A program made the position numbers and the translations under genes. DNA of 64,000 bases from Thelephora terrestris (lineage: Eukaryota > Basidiomycota > Agaricomycetes > Thelephorales > Thelephoraceae), in assembly GCA_015956445.1 (NCBI GenBank), contig WIUZ02000006.1:2413001-2477000 (forward strand). The letters run 5' to 3'. This document shows positions 34,986 to 62,581 of this stretch, in pieces; the first letter of the stretch is position 1; each line of letters begins with the position of its first letter. The notes under the pieces are model-generated. The model was given only the letters and a program-made list of their open reading frames with translations, was not told where the DNA came from and made no database searches.

Positions 34986-35814
34986 CCTAGTTATAAGGTA
35001 GATGGCACGAGCCCTTTACGTTGTTTTGACGAACAGAGACACTATTAACGCTTCGACCCTGTTCCTCATACGTTGTCTTTGAATGTGACAGTGCTTTAGT
35101 CGCGAGGAAAACCAGAGCATTGCTGATAGACCGAGCAGATAATTATGCAGAGGTTTGGTTGTTGAGGGTTTCTGCTCCGGGCTGTTTCATTCTACATCGA
35201 AGACACGGCGGCGTAAGCTATTTTCCATATCCCCTAGTTGGCCCAACGACCTCAGCGTCATCATCAACGTGCGCAATCGTGTATCCGCATCTCTCCCTTA
35301 CTCCGATAAAATCAAGCACGTTGAATCCAATCACTCAGTTCGCCGCTGAGCGGCCTTTGGGGTGACTTGGACTTGCGATGCGGTTTATTTTGTTGTGCAC
35401 TTCGAACGGCACAGCGACTCGGCTCTCTCCATAAACACACAGGGAAGGTCACAGCGAACCTCCGCGGAGCCTGTAGTCTATCTCAACACTCAAACGTCCC
35501 CCTTTTATGGGAAATCGCCTTCATCTGCTGAAGATCAGGTCCACCTTCACCGGGGCCTGGCCCCCAGCCCAGTCAGCCATCAATACAGCTTTTTAGCCAG
35601 GCATGGGCATCGTGCATGAGCAAAAGGCACAATTGAGTTCGTTACATGACTGACGAGGAAAGAAGAGAGATGAAAAAGCAGGACGTTACAGGGTAAACGA
35701 TGGTTTTTCATGACATACAAGGAATTTGAGAGACGTTGAAGACACGTAGGTTTATGATAGCGGAAGATCGATGTGTGGGTCCATCAAATCTCTTTCCCAC
35801 ATTACCATAACACA
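34986..35814. other. Intergenic region before the NLR-type gene
   Basis: The 830 bp hold no supported gene. The sequence marks the change from housekeeping to accessory DNA. Confidence 0.4.
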
Positions 35815-38800
35815 AATGAAACACCTCCGGAAAATAATGCGCAAAAAATCGCCCAAACCTCCCCACCAAACCATCTCTTCCGGCGAACCTCCCAGCATCG
35901 CTGCCGGGCCATCCGGTTTCGTATCAGCACTCGCTGCCCCCGAAGGTGCGTAGAGGCTTTCTTATCGGCGCGGTTGATGAATTGCCCCGATATGACTGTG
36001 GTGCTAGACGAGAGCGGCGGGACGGGTTCCTTTCAGCACCCCGTGGACGAAGATCCAGAGCTTATCACGTCGGAATGTTTGATATTCGACGGTTTGATTG
36101 AAAACCCTGGCCACATACATGGCAAGTGCTCTTAATTACTGCAATTTGGGCTAATGTTCATTCGGATATCTGCTCTCGCCACCAGATGTAAATACCGGCG
36201 GTGAGACTGGAGAGAGGAAGATCGAATCAGCAGAGGCTTCCAGGTGTACGTGCCGATATGATGGTGTTGACTCTCTCTTACCATCTGCCAGCCGCGAAGA
36301 GAGCTCGCAAAGGCACTTTGCACGGGGATGCAATCATGGCCACGGAGAAGTTTGGTCCCCTCAAAGTTGTCCTCGGTTCGATACCCGCTCTTTTCGCCAA
36401 TCGTGAGGTCTGTCTATGATCTCCCACTCGGAACTCTTCGTTGACAGACCCATTTTTAGAGGATCGTCGCCGCAGGAAACAAGGTTGAAAACCTCCTCTC
36501 CCATGTAGCTAAATTGGAAGAGCATCTGAATTCCCGTCCGTCTGACGTGGCAGAGCAGAGGCGCCGGGACGAATTGATACGGTATACTATGGTCTCTCTC
36601 CCACGCTCAGTGCTGACCCCCTTCAAGCAAGTTCAAGGGTATCGAAGGACGATTGCGCTCGATGCCGGAGTGGCAGCAGCCTACCGATCATGCGCGAGAC
36701 GATGAAGATGTGTTCGGCCTTCTCGATGACCTACAAGAGGCAGTCATAAACTATCAGGTTGGTTCATGACCTGACACTCCACTCAGTGTTAACAATGACA
36801 ACAGATGGAGCGGCGAGGCGCGGTTGAGATAGTGAGTGTCCCCTTTCGTGTCTGGGTAACCAACTGACCTCTTGGCAGGACCCAGGTCAGAATACCTTCC
36901 GGTTAAGACTTTGGTCACGCTTACCCAATCCCCTCCTCAGCTGAAGCGGCTGTCCACAACAATTTTTGCTATGCACACCAGGCCGAGTATCGACATGGAA
37001 ATCGCAATGGTTGTCTCAAGGGAACCCGCAGGGCAATTCTGGACGAGATAGAATTGTGGACACGACTTTGGAAAGCAACCCGTCTACTGGCTGAACGGAC
37101 TCGCGGGAACGGGGAAGACGACAATTGCTCAGACGATCGCAGAAAGGACGTTTGCAGACGGGCGACTCGGTGCCTCCTTCTTCTGCTCCCGGGACTTCGA
37201 GGACAGGAGAAATCTCAAGTCCATTTTCCCTACCATCGGGGTTCAGCTTGCATGCACGCATGTGGAATTTCGGTCGATCTTCGTCCCGCTGGTCCAGTCA
37301 GATCCAGATGTCGCTCACGAGACCCTTTACAGCCAGATGAACAAGCTGATAGTTCAACCCCTCGTGAAGTCCGCCATCTCGACCATGATCATGATTGACG
37401 CCTTGGATGAGTGCAAAGACGACGAGCCTGCCTCCGCAATCCTGTCTGTCCTTGGCCAGTTTGTGGACAAGATCCCCAAGGTCAAGTTCTTTGTCACCGG
37501 TTGTCTGGAGCCACGCATTCGAAATGGCTTCCGTCTCCCGCTATTGGTCGAAGCAACAAACATCATTTTCCTTCACGACGTCGAGCCAGGTGAAGTTAGT
37601 AGCGACATAAGGCTATTCTACCAACACAACTGCTCAGAGATTAAGAGCCGTCATCACCAATTGGACTTGGATGGCCAACTAGGGAACAGCTAGACCTGCT
37701 TTGCGAGCGTGCGGCAGGACTGTTTGTGTAGGCCATGGCTACAGTCAGGTTCATCGATACAAAGAACAAGAACCCACAGAAACAGCTGGATCGGCTTATC
37801 CAATCGCGAGACAGTGGATCTGAGGGGAGGGTCAAATTCAGGACAAACACGACACTCGATTCCCTCTACGTGTCTATTCTTCATGATGCCTTTGGCGACG
37901 ACGAGCCAGAGGATGACGCCAAGGTCCGCTTGGTTCTCGCTGTTGTGACCCTTGCCGCAAATCCTCTCTCCCCATCCAGCATCGCCACCCTCCTGGGCTT
38001 TGACCTTGGAGACATATTCCTAATCTTGTCATCATTGCATTCGCTCCTCATCCTCTCGGAGGATGTCCATCATCCCATTCGACCTTTTCACAAGTCGTTT
38101 CCCGACTTCATCGTTGATTCAGCCCAGTGCACAAATCAAAGATTTTGGCTTCAACCTCCCATTCATCACACGAAAATTCTGTTGGCTTGTCTTGAGTTGA
38201 TGAATGAAAAGTTAAAGCAAAACATGTGCCAGCTTCCAGATGGGGTCACCAACGTGGAGGTCAAGGATCTGAAGGAAAGGACCAGAGAGCACATTGATAA
38301 AGCCCTGGAATATGCCTGTAAATCATGGCATAAGCACCTTGACTCAGGATCAATGGAGAAGGTTAAAATCACCCCGGTCCTGCATCGGTCCCTGGAGGAA
38401 AAGTTTCTATTCTGGCTGGAAGTACTCAGTGTTCTGGGTGCTACAAGGGGAGCGGTTGATGCATTGGAAAGGGCAGAAAAATGGGTGGATGTATGTTGCA
38501 TTTCATTGTTGTTTTCCAAATGTTTATCAAGCCGAATCTAGGTGTCTTGGACTGTTGAACTCAACAAGGATTGCCTTTGTTTTCTTGTTGAATTCTTTGA
38601 CGTCATCAGCACATCTGCACCACACATCTATACCTCAGCACTTCTCCTAGCCCCCCAAACATTGGCTGTGCACAAGCTATACAAGCAATATTCCTGTCCC
38701 TTGGCAAAGGTTTTGTGGGGGTTACAAAACTCGTGGAATGTGGTTCTTGCCAAAGACTGTGAAGCCTATGCCAATGTGGTGACATGGTCAGTTTGCAGCA

Positions 38801-39557
38801 GGTTCATTTCCATTGCTAGAGAGTCAACAATAGAAATTCTTGACAAAGTGACCCTTGCACAATATAAGGCCTTTGAGTTTTCCCAAGGTGCAAGACCCAT
38901 ATTGCTTAGTTTCTCCCCAAATGGGTGCACTTTGTCCTTGGTTGATAAAGAGAAGCTTACCAGCTGGGACCTCCAGACAGGCAGTCCACTCAGTACTATC
39001 TTCTTTACTCAAAGATGGGATGACCACATCAACCCCTTCTCAGTTGTGTATTCAATGGATGGAAATATGCTTGCAATTTCAGGCTCCTCACACGATAGCC
39101 AAACTGTCATTGTCACATGTGATCTCATCTCTGGGATGCATACACATTCTTATTGTACTCATGAAAATTTTATACACCCAATTTGGACCCATGGTGACTG
39201 CCTTTGTTTTCTCACCATAAACACAGGGTTGATCACCATGTGGGAGGCCACATTTACCTCCATGAACACACCAACAATGACTGGATTTTTATCTACACCA
39301 GATGAGGTCTTTGATACAAATTGGGGAAGAATTCTCTTCTTTCCTGCTCTCTCCCAAAAATACAGTCTTCATCTGGGACACACAGGAAGCCAGATTCCTT
39401 CTGAAATCTAAGCTTGACACATTCTTGAATGCTAATGGAGATAACTGTATGTTGTTCTCCTCTGATGGTCACTTCTTTTTACACAAGAATCAGGGTCAAA
39501 GAATATATGTTTGGGAGAGGTCACTCACCGCATCAGCAAAACCACCAAAGTTCTTCA
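35815..39557 (+). pseudogene. NACHT-WD40 STAND (NLR-type) NTPase, degenerate and 3'-truncated
   Basis: Fungal NACHT-WD40 proteins are cytosolic signalling NTPases used in non-self recognition and cell death. N-terminal exons start at ATG 35,815 (MKHLRKIMRKK); one splice near 36,120 appears to use a GC donor. Helical segments FGPLKVVLGSIPALFANRE and VENLLSHVAKLEEHL follow. The NACHT core has Walker A NGLAGTGKTTIAQT (37.1 kb) and Walker B MIMIDALDEC (37.4 kb). Later come VRLVLAVVTLAANPLSPSSI and the winged-helix-like IRPFHKSFPDFIVD. A 51-nt intron at 38,491-38,541 leads to WD40-type blades (LSFSPNGCTLSLV, LTSWDLQTG, NTVFIWDTQEA). Frame breaks occur near 37,060, 37,680 and 39,345, with an in-frame TAG at 37,729. 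The sequence ends at 39,557 where a CACTA-like terminus starts. It is therefore a pseudogene, though recent enough to align throughout. Confidence 0.82.
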
Positions 39558-40020
39558 CACTTAGCGGCGGGTAGTGTTCGGGTAGCTTTCGGGTAGTTCA
39601 GGTATCCTTTGAGCACTGTATTTTGGCGCTTCATGTTGAACCAGGAGTGGTCATGTTATGCAACAGGGCTGTGTCGCCAATTTGGGGCACAGAGGATTAT
39701 GATTGGCTGGGACCTGGGCGATGATGATTGGCTGGATCATATTTTTTCTGGCTCATGTTTTTTTTGGGCCCGCGCTTGTTTTGCACGCATTTTGTTTACG
39801 TGATCTGTGCTCACTCAAAGTACTAAAACATATCAAAATTAGACATAACATATGGTTGGCTGATGATTGATGTATTGATTTGTCAAAAAAAGAGTAGCTA
39901 TTCAAACGACCGTACAAGCAAGATGAGATATATGGACCCCGGTACCGCAACGGCTATGACATCATCAGAAGAGGCTCTCTCGGAAAAAAGAAAAATCCTC
40001 CTTGTTGAAGTAATGGTTGA

Positions 40021-40743
40021 CACCGGGTGCAGACCCCTACTTACCTGGCAGGCAAATTGAGGGTTTTTTGAGAGTTTTTCAACAATTTACTCAGATTTTA
40101 CCCAGTGGGTTAATTGTGAACGAATTCAAAACTTACCCACCACTTTGCCCACACTTTGATCAGTGGGTAAGTTTTGAATTTGTTTTAAACAAGCTCATCA
40201 GTTTGCCCATGAGGTACTTCTTTGACAAACCCCAAGGGTTCTTTCACAAATTTCACCAAATGTGCCCACCACATGCTCTGAGCCACTCATCAAGAGTTCT
40301 TTCAAAACTTGCTCACAACATACTCAGTAACATATCCACCAGGTTTTCTTTGATGTAATCACAACAAACTCTTGATATGCTGAATTTCTTGAAAAACTCT
40401 CAACAATCCCACTGTGTACATGATTAAGCATGCTGTGGGCAAATTTCTGGGTAATTTGTGAAAGAACTCTGGGCAAGTGGCTCAGATAATGTCGTGGACA
40501 CATTTTGTGCAATTCACGAAAGAACCCTTTGAGCTTTGTCAAAGAAGTGCCTCATGGGCAAACTGATGAGCTTGTTCAAAACAAATTCAAAACTTACCCA
40601 CTGATCAAAGTGTGGGCAAAGTGGTGGGTAAGTTTTGAATTCGTTCACAATTAACCCACTGGGTAAAATCTGAGTAAATTGTTGAAAAACTCTCAAAAAA
40701 CCCTCAATCTGCCTGTCGGGTAAGTAGGGGTCTGCCCCCTGTG
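40021..40743. mobile_element. CACTA MITE-1, palindromic, in Plavaka last exon
   Basis: A 723-bp non-autonomous element. Its ends read CACCGGGTGCAGACCCCTAC inward from the left and CACAGGGGGCAGACCCCTAC from the right. The target duplication is TGA (40,018-40,020 and 40,744-40,746). The two arms are inverted copies of each other over almost their full length, about 350 bp each. Subterminal ACCCAGTGGGT and ACCCACTGATC motifs repeat. No coding capacity. CACT-like ends and a 3-bp target duplication are the marks of the CACTA superfamily. Removing the element plus one TGA restores the Plavaka frame. Confidence 0.88.
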
Positions 40744-41209
40744 TGAGGAAAAATGTATGACAGCTATTGAAACACATTCGAGCGGTGAGGTGCATGTCAG
40801 CCTTTTCTCCGAATCTGGGGATCAGGTTCACAGGCATGTGGAGGTGGTGCAATGGAACAATGCCACCCATTGGAGACCCATCGCTCCTAAACGCTCTGTG
40901 CAAGACATACATACCGTGAATTGGATCGGGAGCAAGCCTTGCTCCTCTTGGGAGGTGGGTCTGGGGGACAATGTTGAAGCGTTCGACATATGCGAGATAC
41001 AGCGGACGTGCTGTTGGAACTTCCCAGATGGGATGGAAGATAGTGTGAATTTGACCTACAAAAAAACCTCCCACGTTCCATCAGCATCCAGCCACATATT
41101 ACTGCACCTTGCATATTTGCGTGAAAATGCAAACTCGAAAAAAAGCTGTTCAGTCGCGCTTGGTGTGACCCCGTCACGGTTGGAAACTCTAATTCCTCCC
41201 GTGACCATC

Positions 41210-42283
41210 ATGACTCCTTCGTTATCAGTCAACATAAAGCAGAGGATCGTCCAGTTGCAACAGGAGGACTTGGCACTACAAGAGATTGCGGATCGCCTGA
41301 AGGTATCCGTTGGCGTTGTACACAAAACACTGAGTATCTACGAACAGTACGGCGAGTACACAGATCCTTCAAAAAAGCGAATGGGGCGGCCACCGATCCT
41401 TGACGATGACAACGAGTGTTACCTAAAATCACTCTTGGAATCCAACCCATCAATATACCTCGACGAGATCAAGCAGAAACTCGAAGTAGTCTGCGGGGTT
41501 TCTGTCTCAATGGCCACCATCTCTCGTTTTCTCCGATCGCGCGACTTCACTTGGAAAGTGCTCCTCCGGCCAGCTACAGAAGTGAACGAGAGGGTTCGGA
41601 CATGCTACCAGACGGAGACTTCAAGATTCACCGACCCCAACTACTTCGTTTTCATTGACGAAAGCCACATTGACTGGAAAACCGCACACTGTTCAAAAGG
41701 GTGGTCATTGATCGGGGTACCACCAGTGGAACGGTCAACGTTCCTCCAAGGCGTTCAATACTCAATCCTACCTGCACTCACAACTGAAGGGATTGTAGCT
41801 CTTGAGATTTTTGAAGGCTCTGTCAATAAGGCAAAGTTTCTACAGTTTCTTCGTGATGACGTGGTGCATGTAGCCTCTTTTTTTAGCTTCCAATTTCTCA
41901 ATGTGGTGTAATCAGGCTCCACGGTTGAGTCCTTTCCCAGGAAAGAGAAGCATTGTGGTCGTCGACAACTGCTCAATCCACCACGACCCTCAGGTGAAGG
42001 AGTTAATCAAAAGCGAGTGTGGTAAGCACAGTTTCTGCCTGCTACACATGTATCACACACATCTGATTGTGAAGCAGGTGCACTTCTCCTGTACCTCCCT
42101 CCATATTCTCCAGACCTAAACCCTATTGAGGAAGCATTCTCCTCTATTAAAGCCTCTCTGAGGCGAAACAGTAAATACTATACTAATGAGAGCAAGCTTC
42201 CATGGCTAATCCATGAGGCCGCCGCCTCAATCACTCCCGAAATGGCATTGGGGTGGTCCGCAGATTGTGGCTATGTTCCATAG
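41210..42283 (+). CDS. Tc1/mariner-family (DDE) transposase
   Basis: The enzyme cuts and rejoins the transposon ends at TA sites. Three exons (41,210-41,863, 41,916-42,021, 42,078-42,283) joined by GT-AG introns of 52 and 56 nt give 321 residues with no visible break. The N-terminus has a paired-type helix-turn-helix (IKQRIVQLQQEDLALQEIAD) followed by an AT-hook-like GRPP and a second helix-turn-helix (SVSMATISRFLRSRDFTWK). Catalytic residues are the Asp in YFVFIDESHIDW, the first Asp in IVVVDNCSIHHD and the Glu in PYSPDLNPIEEA. About 35 residues separate the last two, close to the DD34E of Tc1. A longer open frame upstream (from 40,757) overlaps the Plavaka relic and is chance. Confidence 0.88.
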
Positions 42284-42426
42284 CGCTGTATTATTGAAGC
42301 GTGTATATTATTCAACGAGTGGATAGTCAAAGACAATAAGACTAAAAGGGAGTTAACAAATTAACGAGTGGATGAGGGGAGCATGTAATAAAAATCAACA
42401 TGGGGATCAGTATCATCAAAAGTTGG

Positions 42427-45027
42427 CTACTTTGCCATCCGAGCCTTCTTACACTGGGGGCAAGGGGGTACTTACCCAGTGGGTACATTGTGAGTTCATT
42501 GTGGGTTTTGAAACCATTCGCCCAGTCGTTACCCACCAGGTACTTTTTGGGTACTTTTTAAAAGATACCCATCAATTCGCCCGCATTTTACCCACTGGGT
42601 ACATGGTGGGTATTTTGTAAAAGTACCCACTCAGGAACCCAGTGGGTATTTTTTGAGCGAAACCCCTGGGTTCTTTCACAATTTACTTTCCAATGTGCCC
42701 ATCACAAACCTGAGCCACTCATTGAGAGTTCTTTCACAAAATACCCACTGATCTGATCACAATGTACTCAACCGGGTGCTCAGTGGGTTCTTTGGGAGTT
42801 TGTGGTGGAACTGAGCCACACTGTTAGTTCTTTATGTGTTCTTTGAAAAAAACCCACTGGGTACATTTTGATCAGATCAGTGGGTATTTTGTGAAAGAAC
42901 TCTCAATGAGTGGCTCAGGTTTGTGATGGGCACATTGGAAAGTAAATTGTGAAAGAACCCAGGGGTTTCGCTCAAAAAATACCCACTGGGTTCCTGAGTG
43001 GGTACTTTTACAAAATACCCACCATGTACCCAGTGGGTAAAATGCGGGCGAATTGATGGGTATCTTTTAAAAAGTACCCAAAAAGTACCTGGTGGGTAAC
43101 GACTGGGCGAATGGTTTCAAAACCCACAATGAACTCACAATGTACCCACTGGGTAAGTACCCCCTTGCCCCCAGTGTTAACCTCTAGTTCAGCGCACCAT
43201 CCACAAGAGAACTTGCGAAGTGCAGAGACCGTGCCCTCAGGGAGACCAGAAACCTGTCCAACCTGTTCATTGGTGATGTTGTTGTCAGCGAGAACATCCG
43301 GCGTATACCCGAGAGTGGAAAGTTTGTCAATTGCGGAACTGATGATGTCATCAGCGAGGGCCTTGGATTTTCCGAACGCTAGCATACAGCTCTCAAGCTC
43401 ATGCTCAACACCAGGCAAAGGAGAAGATGGGCGAGATGGTGGTGGTGAAGGTGACAAGACATGATGAGAGGATGAACATTCTTGAGAGTGCTGGGCACGC
43501 TTGGGCGAACGACTGGTGGGGGAGGTAGGCTCAGCCTCCTGCTTCGACCCACGATGAGGAGTTGAAGGGGTAGTGAGGCCGGGGATCGACTTGAGTTGCT
43601 GGGCCATCAGTGTCGTAACTAACGGGGCCATGACAGTGAACATCGCCACAACTGGATCCACAGTGGGAGCAGCAGGTGCTGTGCTGGTAGTGACGTTGGG
43701 CCCAGCGCGACCGCGAGGCTTCACTGGCAGTGACGGTGTGACCCCCCAATGGATAAGGAGTGCGTCAGATGGGGAATCCTTGACCCCACCTCAGCCAGCT
43801 CTCTGTGGCAACATGTTAATGAAACATTTGCAAACTAGGAAGATTTCTTCTCACAATTTCACTTGCCCAGCCAGATAGACGGAACTTTGTCAACGGGACG
43901 TGCTGGCCGTTGGATGTCACGTAGCATGGACCATCGGCCGTGCAATTCCATTCCGTTTTTAATTCATCAATGATACTGGCGAGTACTTGAGTATCCTGTG
44001 AAAAGTCCTCAACCTCTGGGACCTGCATAACTGTCAGTTGGTTGAGCGCATGCTGGCTGTTGACACATACCTTGGTGGACAGGAAAATCTCCTCATCATT
44101 GTCAAGTTCGTTTGGAAGAGATCCCTAAGATAATGAGTCAGTGTGAGAAGCCAAGTCTAGCGTTCGAAAATGACTCGCCACTTGGACCTTCTCAAACTGT
44201 GGAGACAAGCAACCGCTGTCCAATGTGACACTCAGGTCTACAACACAACTGAAGGGCTGCCTTGCGAGGTCCTCACAGAGCTTCTTCCAGTCTTCATCAA
44301 TTTGGATTGTCGGTGCAGCAGATTTTCCACCCCTAGACCGGCATGAGCAATGTATTGTTTACTAAAGGTTGGAACTTACACAGAACCTTTCCAAGAGATC
44401 CGAAAGTCAGGACCGCTCTCTGAATGGGCCTGGAAGCGATTCTGGAGGTTATGAGCAGTTAGGATTGCATGGATAAACTCTGCTCGAGAGTATCTTAATG
44501 CAGGAATGGGCAGAGGGTGGACCTTTGTACGCGAGTGCTGCTTGGGTGCTCGGGATTTACCATTGCGACCGGTGGTCGGTTGCTTCTCTGACCACAAAAG
44601 TGTAATGTAGAGACTGAATTTACGGTCTAGAAACTAAGGCTAGCGTTAAAAGTCTTTAACCGGGTTTGCTGGGACGTACCAAGGGCAACATTTAGATCAT
44701 TGGGGGTATGTAGCCCTACACCAGGTCCTACAACCTGTTCTTCCCGTGATCCAGCCTCTGCGTCACCGGTGGTGTGGTTGGGAGCATCAGAGTGTGTGTC
44801 TGTGCGCTCTGTGGAACATGGTGTAAGTTGTAGTGGATCGCAGAGACACAGCCCGAAATACCTTGAGTTTGACTCATAAATTCAGTGTTGTACACGATCT
44901 CCGTACCAGGAACGCGATACGGACGTGCAAGATGTGGCGCAAATGTGGGAAGAACAACGAGTTCATGGAATGTGGAACCCTGTGTCGGAGCATCATCACT
45001 GGTATGATTACGAGTTTGATAGGCCAT
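42427..45027 (-). CDS. Unknown accessory gene inside the Tc1-like element, with MITE-2 inserted before its stop
   Basis: I do not recognise this protein. Start at ATG 45,027 (MAYQTRNHTSDDAPTQGST). Exon pieces readable on the minus strand include LARPYRVPGTEIVYNTEFMS, ALRYSRAEFIHAILTAHNLQ, IQIDEDWKKLCEDLARQPFS, WNCTADGPCYVTSNGQHVPL followed by TKFRLSGWASEIV, and a long last exon. The last exon is Pro/Ser/Thr-rich (SPSPPPSRPSSPLPG), then helical (FGKSKALADDIISSAIDKLS, YTPDVLADNNITNEQVGQVS). The small folded region around CYVTSNGQHVPLT suggests a conserved fungal domain but I cannot name it. The gene faces the transposase tail to tail. MITE-2 interrupts it nine codons before the stop at 42,427-42,429; without the MITE it ends EVKKARMAK. 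I see no other certain break. Confidence 0.6.
42452..43176. mobile_element. CACTA MITE-2 (family A), palindromic
   Basis: A 725-bp element with ends CACTGGGGGCAAGGGGGTAC in inverted orientation and target duplication TTA (42,449-42,451 and 43,177-43,179). The arms, about 350 bp each, are near-perfect inverted copies. They are rich in ACCCAGTGGGTA, ACCCACTGGGTA and AGTACCC motifs, likely transposase-binding repeats. No coding capacity. It sits in the accessory gene of the Tc1-like element and is therefore younger than that element. Confidence 0.9.
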
Positions 45028-45805
45028 ATTGATAGGAGATAGTAGAAAGGGAGATGATTCAAAGAAAAAGATAAAGGGAGAGAAACGAGTGTGTGCGTAC
45101 AAAGAACAGTACTGGAGAATATGGACCCGTTCAATCCAGGTGTGCATTTATACTAAAATCAATCCCCGTTTTTTGCCCAGGTACCTGCATTTGTTGCTCC
45201 CTGAAGATGGATACTTCTTATCTTCTCGTCTTCTCGTCTCGCAAGACATCAAGCCTGTTGCTGAAGGCAAACATACCACCCTATGTCACTATGAGAGGAT
45301 TTCCCGCTTATCTAGGCGATGGCCGAGACATCCGAGGCGTGACGAGTTACTTCAAACAAGGACAAACAGGTTTTTTTTCTGTTTGCGTTTTCATGCAAAT
45401 ATGCAAGGGACAGTAGATATCGGGGGAAAAAACTCACCTTCCAATCCAGGAGGTGGTTGCTCAGAACTCCCCTCACCATCAACTGAGAATATTGCAGTGT
45501 CGCATCTGCCAGTGGGCCATCTGTTGCCTGGCGGAGACGCAAATGACTTACGAGGGGGAGTGAGGGTAGCAGAAGAAGGACCACCTTTGGTTTGGATCCT
45601 GACGGAATGCCAAACTTTCACGTCTTCAAAGGGTGCATCGGCATCCCGGAGTGGTCCCCTTCTCTCTGCGATTGTGCGATGCTGTTGATCGCGGAGGTAG
45701 TGCGAGAAGAAGTCCTGTAGCGTAGGAAGAAGGTCGGGAATGGCGAACTTGGTAGAGACGTCCACGATCCTTGCGCACGAAGTATCAGCCCTGGCATTGA
45801 GACGG

Positions 45806-48800
45806 TGTGGCGACATTGAATCTCCCATTCTCCGATTCCTTCCTATTGGTTGCTCGACTCCATTGTGTTCTGGACTCTTCCCGGCCTCATGACTGCCTCG
45901 AGGCAACCTTCACCCTGGTCACCGGACCTCTTCTATTGTCCCTTGGATGTTCTTCCCCGCTTCACATCTTCTTCCCGGGAACCCTGTTTCGAATCCTCGC
46001 GTTCTGCCTTCTTCCACCCGCTACTTGACCCTCCAGAACTTTGATATTCCCGACGCCTCGTTCCCCTCGCCTTTCACCATCATTTCGACCCTCGTTCTAG
46101 CTCTTTGCCATTGCTACCTATCACTATTGACTCCTTCCACCATCGATCTCCGGTTATCTCATCATTCTATGCTCTCGTCCCCACGATTCCTTATCGATCG
46201 GAACTTCCTGGTCGATTGATTAGTTACATTCCCCGCGCCGTTCCGTTCTCCGGGCATTTGCCTCCATTGCTATTGTCAGGGCCACTCTTCGCCCTTCAGG
46301 TACCAGTGCTGTTGGTGAGTCGCAACTCCAACCAACAAGAAACAATGGGGCAAAGGGGGAACGACTTCCCTATATCCACCCAAAGTCTACGTGGTCCAAA
46401 ACGCGATGGACGAGCGTTCTCCGGTAGGTTGTCCGAATTCACAGCAGGAGTGCCGAGCCTCTATCAGATAAATCCCTATCGTCTTCTGAGGGCAGATATA
46501 AGAGCCCGAGGATGGCGCCTCAAACTGATGCTTGGTTAAGAGAGCGGCGAGGAACTCCTTTTTGTAAGCGCGTTCGCCGATTCTTAACGCAAGGCTGAGA
46601 GAGAGAGGAGAGCGAACGTGTTCAGAGAGTTACTCGATAAGCTCTTCAGTGGCCTACAGCAAATACACCGATGCTGCAAGGAGAAGAGGACTTCCCGAGA
46701 TATCAAAGATGGGGAGTCCTCAGCTACTCTACTGGTACCTATATAGGAGAGTGGCCGGGACATAGATAATCCTATCTAATAATAACTCGGAGCAGAGAAG
46801 GGCCGAGAGTAAGCTAGAACAGTAAGCGGCCCGGGTTATAGAATAGAAATAATAAAGGAATGACTAATGGGTCAGGGTTCGTGAGAGAATAAGAAAGGGG
46901 TCATGACGTCGTGTGGGAAAGGAATGACAAAGGATAATATCACATGTGAAGACTGACCAATAAGAGGACGACGCGTCAGCTCGTCCGATCGGGACAACAA
47001 AAGACCGAGTGGGGCTTGAATGTCGAGGGCGAATTGTATGGGGAGTCTGGACCGGTGAAACGATGGACCGATCCAATGGCGAATAGGGCGCGAGCGCTAT
47101 TGGTGGTCGGATAAAGCGTAGTGCAAACCGGCCGTTGGATCCATCAAACTCCCTTCTTCCAAGCCAACACTTCCACCAACCAACTACTCATCATGCCCAT
47201 GATCTCTGACCGTGTCTTCCGTGCTGAGAACAGCACTGCTACCATTGAGTCCGCGGATCCTCGGTCCGTGCAGAACAAGAGCTACTTCCTGCCGAATGCC
47301 AACGTGGCGTACCCCAGCTATCGCGAGGTGCGACGTCACGTGTCGCTGTTTGCTGGCAACAACTGACATCGCTTTTGTAGATCTTCGCAGCGGCCGACAA
47401 GGTGGACGCTCGACAACTGGAGGCGACGATCGCCAAGCCTCCCAACTACCTGACCATGGACGACGAGTTGTGGTATCACAACTTGATCGACCATAAGCTG
47501 CAAGAGTCGATGCGAGGGGTAACGTTCAACACCGAGTTACGCATGCCGTATGAGACTCCGGTGGCTTCGTCGTTGTGGGGGCTTCTACGGATGGGGATCT
47601 ACGATCTGGGGAATGGAGAAGGAAGATGGCCTGGAGCGACTCGCTCCCAACACTATACAGCGGCCGTCGGTCACCGCCTTTGGTTCCTTCTGAGGACGGA
47701 ACAGAAAGCGGTGAGTCGATCTGTGCATCCCGCTTGTGGGATAACACTGATGGACTTATAGAATGAGCGGCTGAAGCGTGAGGTGAAGGAAGCGAAGGAC
47801 GACGCCCGTAGGATGTACTCGGAGGCGTTGGACACGAAGAAAACGCTCCTCCTGATGAACGATACGCTCCGCGTGACATTTGAGAGCGAGATGCTGGCGA
47901 TGCGCGAAGAACACAACCGATTGGTCGAGTCCTTGAAGGAACGAGACGACACCATCCAGCGAGACCTGATCGAGGTCGACCGACGGCTCAACCGTCATCG
48001 AAGGGCTCTGAATGAGCTCGACACCAAGGTTGGTGCGACTTCTCCTGGTCTTCAACCAAGAGAGCTCATACCACTTCTAGGTTGATACGTTGGATGACGC
48101 CTTGCCGTTGCTGGGCGCTCGGGTCGAGTCGATGAGTGAGCGATTGTGCCACTGCCGTATGCGTTCGGTAGCTGCGGTTCGCGACGAGTCCGGAGACGAG
48201 TCGATTCCTGATCGGATGGCTTCTCCCATAGGTGGGATGTCGGTTGACATATTTGGCTTGTCCACTGACGTCCCTTCTTAGCTTCCGATGGGTCGTACCG
48301 TACACCTGTGCATACTGATGGCGGGGAGGAGGTCGTCCGCGAGACGTCCGAGGAGACGGCGGTTAACCCGGTCAGCAGTTCTCCGGAGTTGGAGTATGCG
48401 GGGGAGAACGAGGTGGCTGTTCCGATCCCGCCTCCGTCGATCTCGCCGGTGCGTGGGCAACGTTCTATCCGTGCTCGTCGATGGGTTCCTTATCGTGGGG
48501 CACTTCGTCCAGCCCATCGCATGCGGCCCAGTAATCCAGACGCTGTCCGCCAGGGTGGAGACATCGAGTCCACCGTCCTATTCCGACGCAATGATGTTGC
48601 AGTGCCGTGTGGATCGCGGCGAGTTGGTTCCGGTGGAATCCGTCGACGTGAACGGATTGACGAACCTTACGCTCTTGTCGGTCCAGCGTGCAGCGGAGGC
48701 CGTTCGCCTGGTGGCTCAACTGACCGAGAGAGTGGAGGGTTGGTCAGTCCAGAGGACTCTGGATCAGACTACGGTCGATTCAGCGAGGAACCGCCTGCGC

Positions 48801-49849
48801 GCCGAGGTTCAGCTGGCCGTCGCTCATCGTCTGGAGGAAGCTCGGGTCGTCGAGATGGTCGACGAGGAAGTCGTCGAGAGTGCCTCGGAGGGAACGGAGG
48901 AGGAGATTGCCAGTGCTGAGGAGTACTGGCAAACCCGGTCTTGACGACTAGAGTCGGTGCACGTTAGTCTCTGTTCATAGGGTCGGTGCGGATTCAACTC
49001 CGTTGGCCATTCGTCTTGTGTCTTCGTTGCGGGTTCGCCCGCTGTAATATCATCTGTGCTTTGTCTGTGTTTCTTGATGACGTGTGAGTCGTGATAAGGA
49101 AACAGATAAGATAAGAAAGGGGTATGGGTAAGGAAAGTGGGCGAAAGTTGGGTATGAAAATGGTTCAAAAAGGGAAATAAAATTCAGCACGCTGACAGCT
49201 ATCTTCCGCTCTTGAGTTCTGTTCCCCTGCGTTTTCTCCTGTATGACACGGCTTTCTCTTGTGCCGTCGTCACCCCTTTGTCATCATCCCTGTAGTTACT
49301 CAGCCTTCGTCGTTGTTGCCCCCTAGTAGTTACCCCTCTCACCAAGTTCTCCTTAGTTTTGCTTTTCCGTTCCCCTTCTCTCTCACAGACTATCCTCGAC
49401 ACTGCCTATTTAGGAGATTCTTTGGTTTCCTTTATATACCGTGTCTTAGATAGCCTGGAATCCATCGACTCAGATCCCCCAGTTCAGTTCCAGTCCGAGT
49501 TCTCCAGTTCCCCGGTTTGCTCTCCAGTTCTCAAGTCAAGTTCTCTGTTTCTCTGTGTCTTAGTGCTACTCCTACCAGCCTACCTCTGCTACTCTACAAC
49601 GTTGCGGTGATTCTCCATCGCAACTCTTCGCAACCTCTGTTCCTATCCCTCTCTGCTTTGTCTCGAATCTCGCGCTTTACTCTAGTCGTCACGGTCTTCC
49701 CCGGCGATTCTCCAGACATCTTCGGGCATCTCTGAACAGATCTTCTGTTCCGGTGGTCGTACAGAACTCAACACTCAACCGGTACCCACCTCAACTGCTT
49801 GTCCACTCTTTCTAGGGTATCCGACTACCTGGAGTGTTCAGCAAGTTCA
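45806..49849 (+). mobile_element. Unclassified 4.0 kb inserted element with a coiled-coil gene
   Basis: Plavaka coding sequence stops at 49,850 (TAFH) and resumes at about 45,800 (LNARADTSCARIVD), so everything between was inserted. Candidate ends are TGTGGCGACATTG on the left and GTTCAGCAAGTTCA on the right, a TG...CA form, with ACGG/ATGG as an imperfect 4-bp duplication. The right 450 bp are CT-rich with a TATATA near 49,432. I found no pair of long direct repeats and no integrase or reverse transcriptase. It may be a non-autonomous LTR-kin element, or a different type. Classification and exact ends are uncertain. Confidence 0.5.
47193..48944 (+). CDS. Unknown coiled-coil protein encoded by the 4.0 kb insertion
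   Basis: I do not recognise the family. The gene starts at ATG 47,193 (MPMISDRVFRAENSTATIES) and has several short GT-AG introns. A conserved-looking N-terminal half reads SYFLPNANVAYPSYRE, then IFAAADKVDARQLEATIAKP, NYLTMDDELWYHNLIDHKLQ and ATRSQHYTAAVGHRLWFLLR. After an intron comes a long coiled coil (NERLKREVKEAKDDARRM, LVESLKERDDTIQRDLIEVD). A Ser/Pro/Glu-rich linker follows. The last exon starts at 48,540 after a GTGCGT...CCAG intron (TLSARVETSSPPSYSDAMML) and ends with helical, acidic sequence to YWQTRS. A second frame is also open in the last exon region; the one given is favoured because it continues the helical pattern. No catalytic motif is visible. Confidence 0.55.
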
Positions 49850-52279
49850 ATGGAAGGCGGTGGTTGGGGTGGAGAACATTCGTGGGAATCGGGCGGTTGG
49901 GCGGGCTTGGGTCTCGGTTGTAGTGATGACAAACAGGTTTGTGATAGGCCGAGGTGGTCCAAAGACTTGTGCGACTTGAGGTAGCTCCGACGTCCAGTTG
50001 TTGCTGTCGCCATCACAAGTGTCGAACATCCAGTCCGGCCCAGCGGCTTGGTGAGGTGTGTATACTTTGGCCGCGGTGTGGATGGCTGTTGCGAGTTTGA
50101 AGTGCTGGTGTTTTTCATTGTGGTTGAGGTGTCGACATATCTGCGGGTAGTAGTCGTGATTGTTGGTGTTCTCCCGGGGCGCCTTGATGAGATCGATGTG
50201 TAGACGTTCTGTGACATCTGCGGACAATTGGGGGAGTGCCCCCAACCACTTGATGCAGGAGACGATAGACTGGAGTAGCTCTAGTTTCGGGATTTGGAAG
50301 TGGGTCATTGCAGCTCCACTCTTTCCAACATGAAGGCTCAGGTCGAGGATGATCTGCTTGAACTGGTGGAATATCTCGAGGGCCCTAGTGATGTCATTCA
50401 GGATGTCGATGTTGAGGTTGTGAAGCTGGGAGAGATACTGCAAGTCGAAGAGAGCACGGACACAGATGACAAACTTGGGACGGACACAGTCTGCAATCAA
50501 ACCAAGGATGTATCCACTGGGGACAAGCCCCCACTTACTGACCAGGTACTTTTTAAATACATTGTGATTCCATGTCCAATGTACCAACACTTTGCTGGGC
50601 AAGAACAAGTTGAGTTCTTTCAGAATGTACTAAACAATGTAAATACTACCTCCCAACTCAGTACATTGTGGAAACATTCAAAAAGTACTGAATCATGTGA
50701 CCACAATGTCCCTGATCAGTAATTGCTCAGTACTTTTTAATTGTCCCAAAGAAAGTGATCAACAAGTACCTGCACTGCACATTGTGGTTTCAATCAAAAT
50801 TTACTGGGTCATGTGACTACAAAGGACTAAACTGGTGAATGCTGAGTACTTCTAGAATGTCTTAGGCGTATGTGTCCAAATTTTACCTGACTCAAAGAAA
50901 ATGTGATCACAAAGTGCTGAGACTTGGTAAATCCTAAACACTTTTTGAAAGAACCCAAAATGTACTGAATTGTTTAAAAAGTACTGTGCAACAATTCAGT
51001 ATATTTTTCTTTCTTTCAGAAAGTGTTCAGGATTCACCCAGTCTCAGTACTTTGTGATCACATTTTCTTTGAGCCACTCTTCTAAAATTTGGACACATGG
51101 GATCAGGACATTCTCAAAGTACTCAGCATTCACCAACTTGGTACTTTGTGGTCACATGACCCAGTAAATTTTAATTGAAACCACAATGTGCAGCACAGGT
51201 ACTTGTTGATCACTTTCTTTGGGACAATCCCAAAGTACTGAACGATTACTAATCAGGGACATTGCGGACACATGATTCAGTACTTTTTGGATGTTTCCAC
51301 AATGTACTGAGCTGGGAAGTAGTAGTTCCATTGTTCAGTACATTCTGAAAGAACTCAACTTGATCTTGCCCAGCAAAGTGTTAGTACATTGGACATGGAA
51401 CTACAATGTATTCAAAAAGTACCTGGTCAGTAAGTGGGGGCTTGTCCCCAGTGATCGTTGAATGTCTCGATGTTCACAACCGGTGACCTGTTTCAACAAC
51501 GAGATCCCAGAAGGAAAGTGGCGGTAACCGCTTCGCAGCTGGAGAAGGGCAAAGCGACGATCCAACTCAACGTCACCGATTGCTCGAAGGATCCATTTGA
51601 CGTCATGGTCCTAGAAAGACTTGTGGAGGTGGTGGAGGATCTCGACCGGAAAGACCTGTGATGGGTTCAGGAGTGTTCTGTCAGGCAGCCTCCAGTTGTG
51701 CCAAAAGGGGAGGTCAACGCCGTTGAGGCAGTGCAGTCCTCGAGCCTTGGTCGTGTAGGTGGCAACATTAGATGGGTTGAAGTGCGAGAGGTTGTTGAGA
51801 GATGCAAGGATGTCCAGAGTTGTTCATGGGGGATGCTGGAAGGGATCGCCAAACTCTCTGAAAGTTGCCGTGGTGAGGTGGGACGTCTTTTCTGCCATGC
51901 CAGTCAACTCAGCAGCTTCAGGCATATTGGCGATATAGGCAACGAGGGGAGTGAAACAGAAACAGGTATAGCCACCGTAGTCCCTCATCCAGGCTCCTGT
52001 CTGGGCGGTTGCTGGAGGGACGGGAGGGGTTTCTGGGCGAGGAGAGGCTGGCGGGTGTTCCTCATTAATAAAGAAAGTCTTGCAGCATGAGAACCGGTGA
52101 TTCACGTGTTTGAGGACGGGAGGTATTGTTTGCGAAAACCATGCCGCAAGTGGGACACGGTGTGGGGGCCATCGTGTTGGTGCTGAGTACTTGGCGCTGG
52201 GCACTGACTTAGGGGACACGAGTAGACCGGAGGCAAGTTTCCCACAGTTCCTTCCTCTCGATCTCATCCCCCATGTCAA
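49850..52279 (-). pseudogene. Plavaka transposase, middle part
   Basis: In minus-strand order the conserved Plavaka blocks are: FTPLVAYIANMPEAAELTG, KTSHLTTATFREFGDPFQHP (51.84-52.0 kb), NGVDLPFWHNWRLPD (about 51.7 kb), VEILHHLHKSF, DHDVKWILRAIGDVELDRRF and LRSGYRHFPSGISLLKQVTG (51.5 kb). After MITE-3 come VRPKFVICVRALFDLQYLSQ, IPKLELLQSIVSCIKW, LSADVTERLHIDLIKAPREN and YYPQICRHLNHNEKHQHFKL. The block ends with FSTPTTAFH at the edge of the next insertion. An in-frame TAG stands where the family has a tryptophan in the KSF-DHDVKW block, so this copy is dead even apart from the insertions. The start and zinc-finger region of the usual protein were not seen. Confidence 0.8.
50515..51453. mobile_element. 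CACTA MITE-3, palindromic, in Plavaka middle exon
   Basis: A 939-bp element with inverted ends CACTGGGGACAAGCCCCCAC and target duplication ATC (50,512-50,514 and 51,454-51,456). The arms are inverted copies along almost the whole length, with repeated AAGTACTGA, CAGTACTTT and CACAATGTACTG motifs that differ from those of MITE-1 and MITE-2. No coding capacity. Removing it with one ATC rejoins Plavaka codons to read QRYILGLIADC. Confidence 0.9.
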
Positions 52280-53615
52280 CTAAGACTCAATACAGCTTGA
52301 ACACCCCTCATGGCATCGAATCCCTCATCACACTGGTGGACCAGATGACCTCAGTGTTGCCGGTGAGTACTTTCTTCACACCTCATCTCATGGCAGGCTC
52401 ATTAATTTTGGCTTAAAGGTTGTCAACGTGGCCAGTGATGGATCCCTTACTAGCTCAGAGGCCCAGGAGAGACTGCTCCAGGAAATCCGAGCAAAATGAG
52501 ACGCCTTTGTGCAGGAAAAGGCCTGCATCACAAACCTCTTGAACTCGGCAATAGAGAAGGTCAAAATCTACAAGGTCCTACTAGGCATGACGGAATCGCA
52601 AGTTTGCAAGGTTGAAGATTTTATTGGGGACATTCGCTTTCGCCTTCGTGAGCGTGGCGTTCTTCTCAGCCATGCCTACATTTCCTCCGCCGCCCTGCCT
52701 CATACCAACATTGCCTCCGCTGCCACATTTTTGCCAGCCACCTCCACCTCGCCTCTGCCGGCCCTCGATGAAACAGTTCCTCGTCAGACAGGCCCAGAGT
52801 AAGTCCACCGCCATCACGTCTCGGACTCCTCCCCTTTTACACAATGCTAACACCCCCGTTGTTCTATTACTCTATGATTACACAGATCCCCCTTGGCGTC
52901 ACCCATGCTGCACGCCACTAACTCTTAGTCACTCTCTCGTGTTTCTTCGTGTTCTTTGTGTGCCCGGCACGTTCCTTACCACATGACCCTGTTTGTCTCT
53001 TATATAATGCAAATGAAATCTTGTGTTGTTTCCTTGCTCTTGCCCTTTCTTCCACTTCCCTCCTTCGTCTTATCTCTTTTTCAATCCATGCCAGCTGGCC
53101 GAGAAACAGGACAGGGAGGTGGACGGAAGTGTGGTCAGGCCACCCTCACTCACTCTGCTCACTCTGCCCCACCCGCCCCAGTCCCACCCCATGGCACTTC
53201 TCCAGCAAACAACACCCGGTCTTCTCGCTTGCGTACTGATCCAATCCAATTCGAACAAGGCTTCGAATCCTCCTCGTCGGTCCAGGGGAAGTGTCCACGC
53301 TCGTACCCCCAAGAGGAGGAAGTTGAGTCGCCCGCCGTTATTCCAAAAAAAAAAAAAAAACAAGGTCATGTTTTCCTATATCTCTTGTTCCCATATCTAA
53401 CCTCCTGCCACCCAGTCTGCCGTCTCGCACGATACCTCTGTGACATACGCTCACCCTGCACATATGGCTCACTCAGCAAGTACGGCTCACACTCCTAATC
53501 CAGCTCACCCTGCAAATATGTCGCTTGTTGATCCATCCCCCGGTTGTCTCCATTACTCTAATGATCACTTTGTCAATAGCAACATCAACTTGGCCCCTCA
53601 TTATCAAGTCCCTTC
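52273..53615 (+). pseudogene. Unknown plus-strand gene, 5' part, cut by a MITE
   Basis: I do not recognise the family. Exon 1 from ATG 52,273 reads MSTKTQYSLNTPHGIESLIT, and LVDQMTSVLP to a GTGAGT donor. Exon 2 continues VVNVASDGSLTSSEAQERLL, with an in-frame TGA at about 52,498 (an Arg-type context), then DAFVQEKACITNLLNSAIEK and IYKVLLGMTESQVCKVEDFI, a helical bundle-like region. A Ser/Pro-rich linker and a Lys-rich stretch encoded by a poly-A run (53,345-53,360) follow. After one more intron comes SAVSHDTSVTYAHPAHMAHS up to the MITE at 53,616. The layout suggests a coiled N-terminal domain and a disordered basic linker. Its continuation is probably the fragment at 56.8-58.1 kb. Confidence 0.45.
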
Positions 53616-54914
53616 CACTGGGAGCAAGGAAATACTTACCCAGTGGGTACATGGTGAGTGCATTGTGAGTTTTGAAACAATTCACCCAGTCTTTACCCAC
53701 CAGGTACTTTTTGGGTACTCTTTGAAAGATGCCCATCAATTCGCCCGCATTTTACCCACTGGGTACATGGTGGGTACTTTGTAAAAGTACCCACTCAGGA
53801 ACCCAGTGGGTATTTTTTGAGCAAAATCCCGGGGTTCTTTCACAATTTACTTTCCAATGTGCCCATCACAAAAAACTCACAATGTGGCTCAGTTACATCA
53901 AAAACTCTCAAAGAACCTGTTGAGTATCTGGTTGAGTACATTGTGATCAGATCAGTGGGTACTTTATGAAAGAACTCTCAACAAGTGGCTTGTGATGGGC
54001 GCTTTGGAAAGTAAATTGTGAAAGAAACCAGGGGTTTCGCTCAAGAAGTACCCACTGTGGTGTTCCAGTCCAGAACATTGCAAGTTCATTGCAAGGAAAT
54101 GGTCGATGTACCTGGCAAAAACTGACCCAGTACATTGCAAACACATTCTGAAATTTCCAGGCCAATTTCCTTGCAGTTTTCTGGGACAGAAAATGGTCAG
54201 TACATTCACAATGTTCCAGTGATGTTCCCATTAGGTAATCCATGGGTGCGTTCAGGGTTTTGCCAAAGAAAGTAACCTCAACATCGACGATCGGCACATT
54301 GACAATTTTCTTGGTCAGGAAAATTCAAGGTGCGCCCAACAGTGTTTTTGCAGTGTTCCGGGGTGGTACATCCAGAATGTACTGGTACCGTCGACTGCAA
54401 TGTACTGAGTTCAGCAAACACCAGGAACACTGCAGGAACACTGCAAGGAAACTGGAAAAACTGGGAAAATTTTGAATGAACGTGATGTTCCTGGTTTTTC
54501 CAGTTTCCTTGCAGTGTTCCTGTGGTTTTCCTGATGTTTGCTGAACTCAGTACATTGTGGTCGACGGCACCAGTACATTCTGAATTTACCAACCCAGAAC
54601 ACTACAAAGACACTGTTTGAGTGCATTTTGAATTTTGCTGACCAGGAACATTGTAAATGCGCTGATCGTTGACGTCGAGGTTACATTCTTTGGGAAAATT
54701 CTGAATGTACCCATGGATTACCTAATGGGACCGTCACCGGAACATTGTGAATGTACTGACCATTTTCTGTCCCAGAACACTGCAAGGAAATCAGCTTGGA
54801 AATTTCAAAATGTGTTTGCAATGTACTGGGTGGGTTTTTGCCAGGTAGATTGTCCATTTCCTTGCAATGAACTTACAATGTTCTGGACCGTAACACCACC
54901 CCTTGCCCCCAGTG
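53616..54914. mobile_element. Chimeric CACTA MITE (family A left, family B right)
   Basis: The left 437 bp (53,616-54,052) match MITE-2 through its centre and into its second arm. At the sequence ACCCACTG the element switches to a second family (54,053-54,914) built on GAACATTGCAAGG and CAGTACATTC motifs, itself an inverted repeat. The outer ends are still CACTGGGAGCAAGG and, inverted, CACTGGGGGCAAGGGG. No matching 3-bp duplication flanks it (TTC left, GGT right). An exchange between two elements at a shared CACTG explains this best. Confidence 0.75.
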
Positions 54915-55088
54915 GGTGGAAGTCAGCAGCTCTGCGCTTGCACATCAGGTATGTGGTTTGTAAACGTCAGCAAAAAATACTGATTTGGTTTCGGAAAAGT
55001 TCCAGGAACCTGTACCGGTACTTGCTAACCATTGGTCTCGCAATGGTGCACCTAGACCACCAACGTCCTCGTCGCATCAAGCTCCAGC

Positions 55089-56096
55089 CACTGGGGGCAA
55101 GGGTTGGTTTACTGAGTCAGTAAACAGTGAGTAAATCACAAGCAAATGGAAAAAGAACCCAGCCAAATATTGCCTGGCAAGCACAAAGCAAATTCACAAT
55201 TTACTGAGCCAATTTACCTGCAATTTACTGGGTTCAGTATGCGCTCAGTATTTTTGCAGTTTACTGGGTCATGTGACCATGGTTTACCCATTAGGTAAAC
55301 CTTGGAAAAATTCACAATTTACTGAACCAATTTACCAGCAATTTACTGGGCCACTTACCCAATCAGTATGTTTTTAATTTGCTGAGTGATTTAATCACAA
55401 TTTACTGGACTCAGTAAACTGGAAAAAAACCAAATTGGTTTACTGAAAACATACCTGACTGGTCAATTTGGAAAATGACCGAAACTTTACCTGGACGTGT
55501 CATTGTCAGTAAACTGCAAGTTTTCTTTCAGTAAATTGGAAATACACATCAGGTAAACTGGGAAAACACGTGACAATTTGATTGTGGTTTACTGGACTCA
55601 GTAAATTAGAAAAAAACCTAACCGGTTTACTGATGATGTACCTGATTGGCTGATTTGAAAAAAACTCGCAGGTGACATGTCCTGGTAAAATTTCGAGTTT
55701 TTTTCAAATCAGCCAATCAGGTACATCATCAGTAAACCGGTTAGGTTTTTTTCTAATTTACTGAGTCCAGTAAACCACAATCAAATTGTCACGTGTTTTC
55801 CCAGTTTACCTGATGTGTATTTCCAATTTACTGAAAGAAAACTTGCAGTTTACTGACAATGACACGTCCAGGTAAAGTTTCGGTCATTTTCCAAATTGAC
55901 CAGTCAGGTATGTTTTCAGTAAACCAGTTTGGTTTTTTTCCAGTTTACTGAGTCCAGTAAATTGTGATCAAACCACTCAGTAAATTGTGAATTTTCTGTG
56001 CACTTGCCAGACAAGTATTTCACTAGGTTCTTTTTCCATTTACTTGCAATTTACTCACAGTTTACTGACTCAGTAAACCAACCCTTGCCCCCAGTG
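55089..56096. mobile_element. CACTA MITE, family C (TTTACTG-rich palindrome)
   Basis: A 1,008-bp element with inverted ends CACTGGGGGCAAGGGTTGGT. Its interior is dominated by AATTTACTG, GTTTACTGA and AGTAAAC motifs. From about 55,420 to 55,950 the two arms are almost exact inverted copies, so the DNA could form a very long hairpin. Flanking triplets differ (AGC and TGT), so the original duplication is lost or an end has been exchanged. No coding capacity. Confidence 0.82.
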
Positions 56097-56361: not shown

Positions 56362-56833
56362 CACTGGGGGCAAGGGGTGGTGTTCTGGTACAGAACATTG
56401 CAAACACATTCTGAATTTTCCAGGCCAATTTTCTTGCAGTGTTCCAGGACAGAAAATGGTCAGTACATTCACAGTGTTCCAGTGATGTTCCCATTAGGTA
56501 ATCATATTGGGGTTAGCTGTGACAGCCAGTCATGTGATCTGATCATGTGATTGTGAGAATTTTTGTAATGGTATATAGTAGTGTTGATCCCATCAATACA
56601 ACTTGGCTTTTCTCTCCCATCATGTCCTGCAACAAATCAATGGGAAGGAACATCACTGGAACACTTTGAATGTACTGAGCATCTTCTGGCCCAGGACACT
56701 ACAAGGAAATCAACCTGAAAATCTCAGAATGTGTTTCCAACATACTGGGTTGGGTTTGGCCAGGTACATTGTCTATTTCCTTGTGTTGAACTTTCAATGT
56801 TCTGGACCTGAACACCACCCCTTGCCCCCAGTG
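56362..56833. mobile_element. CACTA MITE, family B, interrupted by a solo LTR
   Basis: A 472-bp element with inverted ends CACTGGGGGCAAGGGGTGGT and target duplication TGA (56,359-56,361 and 56,834-56,836). The arms match the right half of the chimeric element (GAACATTGCAAAC, ATTTTCCAGGCCAA). The centre contains a 130-bp solo LTR (56,505-56,634) with its own 5-bp duplication; without it the MITE is about 337 bp. Confidence 0.87.
56505..56634 (+). mobile_element. Solo LTR of a Ty1/Copia family
   Basis: 130 bp flanked by a 5-bp duplication AATCA (56,500-56,504 and 56,635-56,639). It is the reverse-complement counterpart of the LTR at 58,198-58,327, with about six differences over 130 bp. A solo LTR is the usual footprint of recombination between the two LTRs of one insertion. 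It is younger than the MITE it sits in. Confidence 0.85.
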
Positions 56834-58117: not shown

Positions 58118-58197
58118 CACCACCCACCAGGTACTTTCTGGGTACTTTTTGAAAGATACCCATCAATTTGCCTGCATTTTACCCAGTCAGGAACCCA
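58118..58197. repeat. Fragment of family-A CACTA MITE
   Basis: About 80 bp (ACCCACCAGGTACTTTCTGG onward, including GATACCCATCAATTTGCC) match the interior of MITE-2 near 42,530-42,600. There are no termini. It abuts the LTR of the Copia relic. Confidence 0.7.
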
Positions 58198-62580: not shown

Positions 62581-62581
62581 C

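Follow-up and report, generated by a model that had tools for sequence, protein, structure and literature searches.

We analysed a stretch of 64,000 nucleotides (the window) of Thelephora terrestris, an ectomycorrhizal mushroom, located at G000:C56:2413001-2477000 in a genome of 40.6 Mb and 60 contigs, in which transposons are nested within a broken gene of the NOD-like receptor (NLR) type. The gene fragment lies on the plus strand (35750..39530) and comprises a NACHT-like NPHP3_N part (PF24883, E 1.3e-06) and a beta-propeller part, the match to which was weak and under its family cut-off; it is cut at 39530 and its remainder is missing. From 39531 to 55088 follows an interrupted DNA transposon of the PlavakaB type, with its transposase gene on the minus strand and its right terminus lost. 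It holds nine later insertions in all: a two-gene Tc1-like element, two solo long terminal repeats (LTR-A and LTR-B) and six miniature inverted-repeat transposable elements (MITE-1 to MITE-6). The nesting is real, and the deepest stacks consist of three elements in the host gene, namely MITE-2 in the Tc1-like element in Plavaka, and LTR-B in LTR-A in Plavaka. Nested transposon clusters as such are of a known and ordinary kind.

Plavaka and the insertions that interrupt it

Alignment to two copies of the transposon elsewhere in the same genome, on contigs C15 and C16, placed the Plavaka blocks of the window at 39531-40020, 40744-41101, 45414-45805, 49852-50514, 51454-53615 and 54915-55088. Both came to light in a nucleotide search with the left-hand portion of the cluster as query, as places without MITE-1, and they lack the window's insertions. 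An uninterrupted copy of more than 80% identity had been named as the thing to look for; each block of the window is about 91-97% identical to C15 and C16, and the block order deduced from the window alone agrees with that of both. The C16 transposase is open through the insertion sites and matches the Plavaka transposase domain over its full length (PF18759, E 1.7e-82, covering 1-325/325). Both copies carry CATCA..TGATG at their two ends, of which the window keeps the left one only (CATCA at 39531), and are flanked by 2-bp target duplications, CC in C15 and CA in C16; C12 has the empty site that corresponds to the C16 copy. Domain, termini and duplications agree with the pattern of PlavakaB, for which the available text of PMC12730594 gives CATCA..TGATG termini and 2- or 3-bp target duplications. 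The likeness ends with the gene content, as no Pfam-recognised TET/JBP gene was present among five open frames scanned in the C16 copy, and with the broken state of the window copy. The C16 copy (L010:5544-8522) also has plus-strand open frames beside the transposase, possibly a second gene; three stretches of them were scanned without a Pfam match above cut-off. An insertion of about 1.04 kb is peculiar to the C15 copy; we rejected it as a counterpart of the window's 4-kb insert described below, because its site is about 30 bp away and the window has no match to it.

The two copies provided empty sites for four insertions. MITE-1 (40021..40743) is palindromic with CAC..GTG ends and is flanked by TGA at 40018-40020 and 40744-40746; its empty site is found in both C15 and C16. 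For the Tc1-like element (41102..45413, plus strand; TA at 41100-41101 and 45414-45415, inverted repeats of about 50 bp) and for the palindromic MITE-3 (50515..51453; ATC at 50512-50514 and 51454-51456), C16 has the empty site and C15 has joined blocks. The fourth is the composite insert at 45806-49849. A single copy of the target duplication stands at the C16 junctions of all four sites and at the C15 junction of MITE-1. The C15 blocks join with overlaps of 3, 2 and 3 bp at MITE-1, the Tc1-like element and MITE-3, the C16 blocks with a 2-bp overlap at the composite, across which C15 is collinear with C16. An empty site with one duplication copy was thus found for 4/4 insertions tested, one of which (LTR-A) has one mismatch in its duplication, and this is more than chance. 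The original prediction, that a minus-strand Plavaka transposase is split by MITE-1, a Tc1-like element, a 4.0-kb insert and MITE-3, therefore holds. So does its claim that the coding frame is restored at the two MITEs, where the C16 protein reads FFLNHYFDKED (MITE-1) and QRYVLGLIADC (MITE-3). At the Tc1 site, where removal was said to leave a 68-nt intron, a GT-AG intron of that length is possible in C16, with other AG acceptors available at 46 and 56 nt.

Alternatively, the blocks might owe their arrangement to a misassembly, or to segmental duplication with shuffling, since repeats could mislead an assembler and the region is rich in palindromes. Such an origin is hardly credible for four inserts that each have their own target duplication and an empty site in a copy elsewhere, in an order collinear with C15 and C16; we take the blocks to result from successive insertions.

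Within the Tc1-like element, the transposase gene (41210..42283, plus strand; extent set by eye) encodes HTH_32 (1.3e-09) and DDE_3 (9.8e-07) domains in the first 233 codons, which were those scanned. A second, accessory gene runs on the minus strand (43180..45027) and is interrupted at its 3' end by MITE-2 (42452..43176), a palindrome of 725 bp with CACTGGGGGCAAGGG ends and the duplication TTA at 42449-42451 and 43177-43179. The accessory gene was placed by mapping the public protein P0008 (BJ322DRAFT_1020528, 528 aa), of which 4/5 stretches match at 100% and one lies across an intron; this public model runs into MITE-2, so that its C-terminus is MITE-2 sequence. The genome search gave no other copy of the accessory gene. 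One partial relative of its protein, P0009 from a metagenome, was considered as an empty-site witness for MITE-2 and rejected, as its sequence does not show that end. The element itself has one other copy, on C15, which is 96% identical and 3'-truncated, ending short of the right inverted repeat. In its TA duplication, inverted repeats and HTH and DDE_3 domains the window element resembles Tc1/mariner elements; unlike them, it has a second, intron-bearing gene, with no Pfam match in the part scanned and no other copy found in the genome.

Nested LTRs and directional CpG decay

Genome search split the composite insert into an inner repeat of 2.92 kb, LTR-B, and an outer part, LTR-A. Solo LTR-A (45806-46273 and 49203-49849, plus strand, spanning 45806..49849) has TG..CA ends and a 4-bp duplication, ACGG at 45802-45805 and ATGG at 49850-49853, whose single mismatch is itself a CpG-to-TpG change. 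Its orientation was inferred from junctions of other copies that resemble a primer-binding site (PBS) and a polypurine tract (PPT), both labels being our own reading. Among its relatives, two other solo LTRs have the 4-bp duplication CCGT, and paired copies stand 10.1 kb apart with PBS- and PPT-like junctions between LTR and internal part. One LTR-A copy (L038, C4:247912 region) is interrupted after position 812 by sequence beginning CACTGGGG; the overlap there is 3 bp, as an EnSpm MITE would be expected to give. Solo LTR-B (46274..49197, minus strand; 2,924 bp) lies inside LTR-A with TG..CA ends and the duplication GCTAT at 46269-46273 and 49198-49202. Its retroelement sense was set by a two-LTR element on C5, which has the outer duplication AACTG and, on the minus strand, an aspartic protease frame (RVP_2 1.3e-05; 601-bp piece).

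The composite had been described as an unclassified 4.0-kb element, one of four insertions in a Plavaka at 39558-52279 with five layers in all. Most of the insertion points and the order given there match ours. Plavaka homology, in turn, starts at 39531 and continues to 55088, which disposes of a right end at 52279; the 4.0-kb element is two nested solo LTRs, LTR-A split by LTR-B; and the deepest stack is three elements plus the host gene. The locus is thus very improbably organised as first described.

Solo LTRs arise when the two LTRs of a single element recombine with each other. We infer this origin for both LTR-A and LTR-B, which share with other solo LTRs the TG..CA ends, the 4- or 5-bp duplications and two-LTR relatives in the genome; LTR-B differs in being 2.9 kb long and in holding a six-exon antisense gene. 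The LTR-B unit could alternatively be mobile by itself, through a retroelement integrase acting in trans. All ten LTR-B copies examined (the window's and nine others) are single units with matching, perfect 5-bp duplications and 3-15% CpG decay, and only three places were found to have the protease region, compared with at least 36 near-complete LTR-B places, the window's included (38 scored of 385 candidates). Those three places (C5, C23 and C12), each with the protease region between two LTR-B matches, nevertheless are elements with two LTRs; long LTRs are expected to recombine often; and the ten copies, being the best-matching ones, are a biased sample. Independent mobility of LTR-B is therefore the unlikely option, and recombination the preferred one.

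As a clock we counted CpG sites turned into TG or CA directionally, against a relative copy, and compared elements by Fisher tests. Plavaka has lost 114/294 CpG relative to C16, with 11/187 in the reverse direction (sum over seven blocks). LTR-A has lost 34/90, with 1-3 of 90-91 in reverse in six relatives. The Tc1-like element has lost 20/65, with 12/57 in reverse in its only relative, and LTR-B 16/242, with 11/242 in reverse (5/90 lost in its non-coding part alone). As its position inside LTR-A requires, LTR-B appears to be much the younger of the two, because 16/242 of its CpG have decayed vs 34/90 in LTR-A (p 4e-11); it also differs from the Tc1-like element (p 1e-6). Decay of Plavaka is not distinguishable from that of LTR-A (p 0.90) or of the Tc1-like element (p 0.26). 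The NLR fragment, counted against its paralogue described below, is slightly one-sided (65/186 vs 39/156 in reverse). Arm divergence of the MITEs and the CpG count of MITE-1 were rejected as clocks, the CpG being too few. The decay is probably driven by CpG methylation. At 57501-64000 the observed/expected ratio of CpG is 0.13 vs 0.95-0.98 in 1-35000, and the cluster thus borders a stretch with strong CpG depletion.

MITEs, deletions and the succession of events

To the right of the MITEs listed originally lie three further palindromic ones. A truncated MITE-4 (53616 to ~54055) is fused to MITE-5 (~54056-54914), together 53616..54914, with 207 bp of Plavaka lost between them and the inner border set by eye. 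MITE-6 (55089..56096) has two flanks that do not match. Plavaka homology continues through 53615 and 54915-55088 and halts at the left side of MITE-6, and about 2.1 kb of the transposon, including the right terminus, is gone. Relative to C15 and C16, the window Plavaka also has a deletion of about 0.9 kb at 52009..52010; the lost stretch partly matches other Plavaka families. Outside Plavaka, MITE-7 (56362-56833) has the same 15-base ends as MITE-2, and its arms enclose 155 bases that, judged by eye, do not resemble them and may stem from a further insertion.

In the genome, the 15-base end CACTGGGGGCAAGGG was counted 351 times on one strand and 363 times on the other, and its reversed control 0 times. 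Other near-complete copies of MITE-1 are 84-96% identical (best 40 of 285 candidates). In the window, all 13 inverted-repeat pairs of at least 50 nt and at most 1,500 bases apart lie within 40.0-56.8 kb. The CAC..GTG ends and the 3-bp duplications of MITE-1, MITE-2 and MITE-3 fit EnSpm/CACTA elements, for which the available text of PMC12730594 gives both features. In contrast to EnSpm/CACTA MITEs, those of the window are palindromic over most of their length, with arms up to 371 nt, and have no identified autonomous partner: none of 73 Transposase_21 matches in the genome could be tied to CACTGGGGGCAAG ends (first ~100 of 714 end places). Derivation of the MITEs from the window Plavaka was not supported, as ends and duplication length differ. 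At G000:C60:493843-494763, a diverged Plavaka match stops exactly where a MITE-1 relative starts, which suggests that a second Plavaka was hit by the same MITE family.

A paralogue of the NLR fragment (L050), about 60 kb off on the same contig and 81-82% identical, reads through the breakpoint at 39530; relative to it the fragment has small indels, including a 17-bp deletion at 39354. When the continuation of the paralogue (1,500 bp) was searched genome-wide, it gave, besides its own place, only partial matches of 66-85% identity, plus two at 96% over no more than 48-50 bp; of the 20 matches listed, not one is situated to the right of the cluster on C56. The tail of the window copy therefore appears to have been lost. 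The claim that Plavaka cuts the NLR gene accordingly stands for the left side, the right-hand junction and the tail being missing. Of the chronology first proposed, NLR gene before Plavaka before its inserts, and Tc1-like element before MITE-2, stands; the order among the siblings MITE-1, Tc1-like element, LTR-A and MITE-3 is not readable from target duplications.

We consider it very probable that the locus is a transposon graveyard in an NLR-type pseudogene, made by successive nested insertions and deletions. This reading is built on directly observed insertion sites and target duplications, on the order of those elements that are found one inside the other, and on directional CpG decay. In such a course, a PlavakaB transposon would have inserted in the part of the NLR-type gene coding for the beta-propeller and would then have been hit by MITE-1, the two-gene Tc1-like element, LTR-retrotransposon A, MITE-3, MITE-4, MITE-5 and MITE-6. 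MITE-2 would have entered the Tc1-like element and retroelement B retroelement A, both retroelements presumably being reduced to solo LTRs by recombination between their LTRs. Deletions would have removed about 0.9 kb inside Plavaka, the interval between MITE-4 and MITE-5, and the stretch from MITE-6 to the right end of Plavaka with the NLR tail. An EnSpm/CACTA transposase may have moved the MITEs, and recombination or repair at MITEs may have made the deletions.

Several points weigh against this reconstruction. C15 and C16 count as one independent witness, not two, because they are 99.4-99.8% alike. Formally, they could descend from an ancestor that had lost the inserts by excision and not from one that lacked them; excision would need precision at every site and would have to include a retroelement. 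MITE-2 has no empty-site copy. With the right junction of Plavaka and NLR gene lost, the former presence of the tail beyond Plavaka can only be presumed. As to the clock, only the large LTR-B contrast is safe, because decay rates may differ between elements, and some LTR-A relatives are old too: the first count left out three of nine relatives with coverage <90%, and these have 28/71, 11/57 and 11/59 decayed CpG, of which 12, 4 and 4 are in the same state as in the window. For the closest of the three, 12/28 in common with the window is about the expectation under independent decay.

As in the nested clusters of plants and fungi, order is read here from target duplications and from which element interrupts which; the difference lies in four insertions with an empty-site copy and a CpG clock that agrees where it discriminates. 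The cluster is thus a clean worked example in a non-model fungus, where nesting order, empty sites and CpG decay can be compared at one locus, and it shows an NLR-type gene lost through insertion and deletion.

A gene inside LTR-B

An unusual by-product of the locus is the well-kept multi-exon gene of LTR-B. It lies on the plus strand (47193..48944), antisense to the protease, with exons at 47193-47327, 47381-47710, 47762-48028, 48081-48231, 48282-48448 and 48513-48944. The window copy of the gene is complete, its 493 codons being interrupted by five GT-AG introns of 50-64 nt. A frameshift suspected in it was rejected as the product of a wrong gene model, which the fifth intron resolves. The 493-aa protein is close to the annotated proteins P0001 (a cluster of 51 sequences) and P0003.

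In ten copies of LTR-B, 9/10 have the gene without a stop (L033 has one), the exons contain 0 indels, and the start and stop are preserved, as is every one of the 50 pairs of intron splice sites. The ratio of nonsynonymous to synonymous differences (pN/pS) is 0.04-0.18 in 45/45 pairs, calculated on a gene model whose fourth intron is shifted left by one base, without effect on the protein encoded in the window; a shifted-frame control on the first four exons gave 1.93 and 2.44. Second positions change at a rate of 0.030, about half the intron rate. We favour, with some reserve, the reading that the LTR-B retrotransposon keeps a six-exon gene wholly in each 2.9-kb LTR, antisense to the protease, that dozens of intact gene-bearing solo LTRs exist, and that the protein has been under purifying selection; the lack of exon indels and the 50 kept splice-site pairs strengthen the case for a conserved LTR-borne gene. 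Its introns would survive reverse transcription because the gene is antisense, and the gene would survive collapse to a solo LTR because it is located in the LTR. Selection is made less certain by the sample, which consists of the ten best-matching copies and is biased, and by the silent sites, which are not a plain neutral yardstick because divergence is higher at synonymous sites (0.07-0.36) than in the introns (0.03-0.08) or in the upstream part (0.01-0.07), with the downstream part at 0.03-0.21; moreover, 1563/3728 third-position differences are in CpG context.

Coding capacity opposite the gag-pol strand is also present in the Retand elements of plants and some retroviruses. According to the available texts, the antisense open reading frames of Retand are located between pol and the 3' LTR (PMC11963269) and those of retroviruses are driven from the 3' LTR (PMC10186651), whereas in LTR-B all six exons of the gene are within the LTR. 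Among the papers listed in literature searches, no title or abstract opening described a gene located within an LTR of a fungal element. If true, a conserved multi-exon gene in an LTR would bear on the carriage of extra genes by retroelements and on the abilities of solo LTRs after loss of the element. The protein may help or control the element, or be part of a self-mobile unit. A Pfam scan gave weak matches only, with E 0.018 and above and under the cut-offs, and the structure model (mean pLDDT, the predicted local distance difference test, of 50) is confident only for one long helix. In protein searches, the relatives with a named source were all from T. terrestris, and many others were on short contigs.

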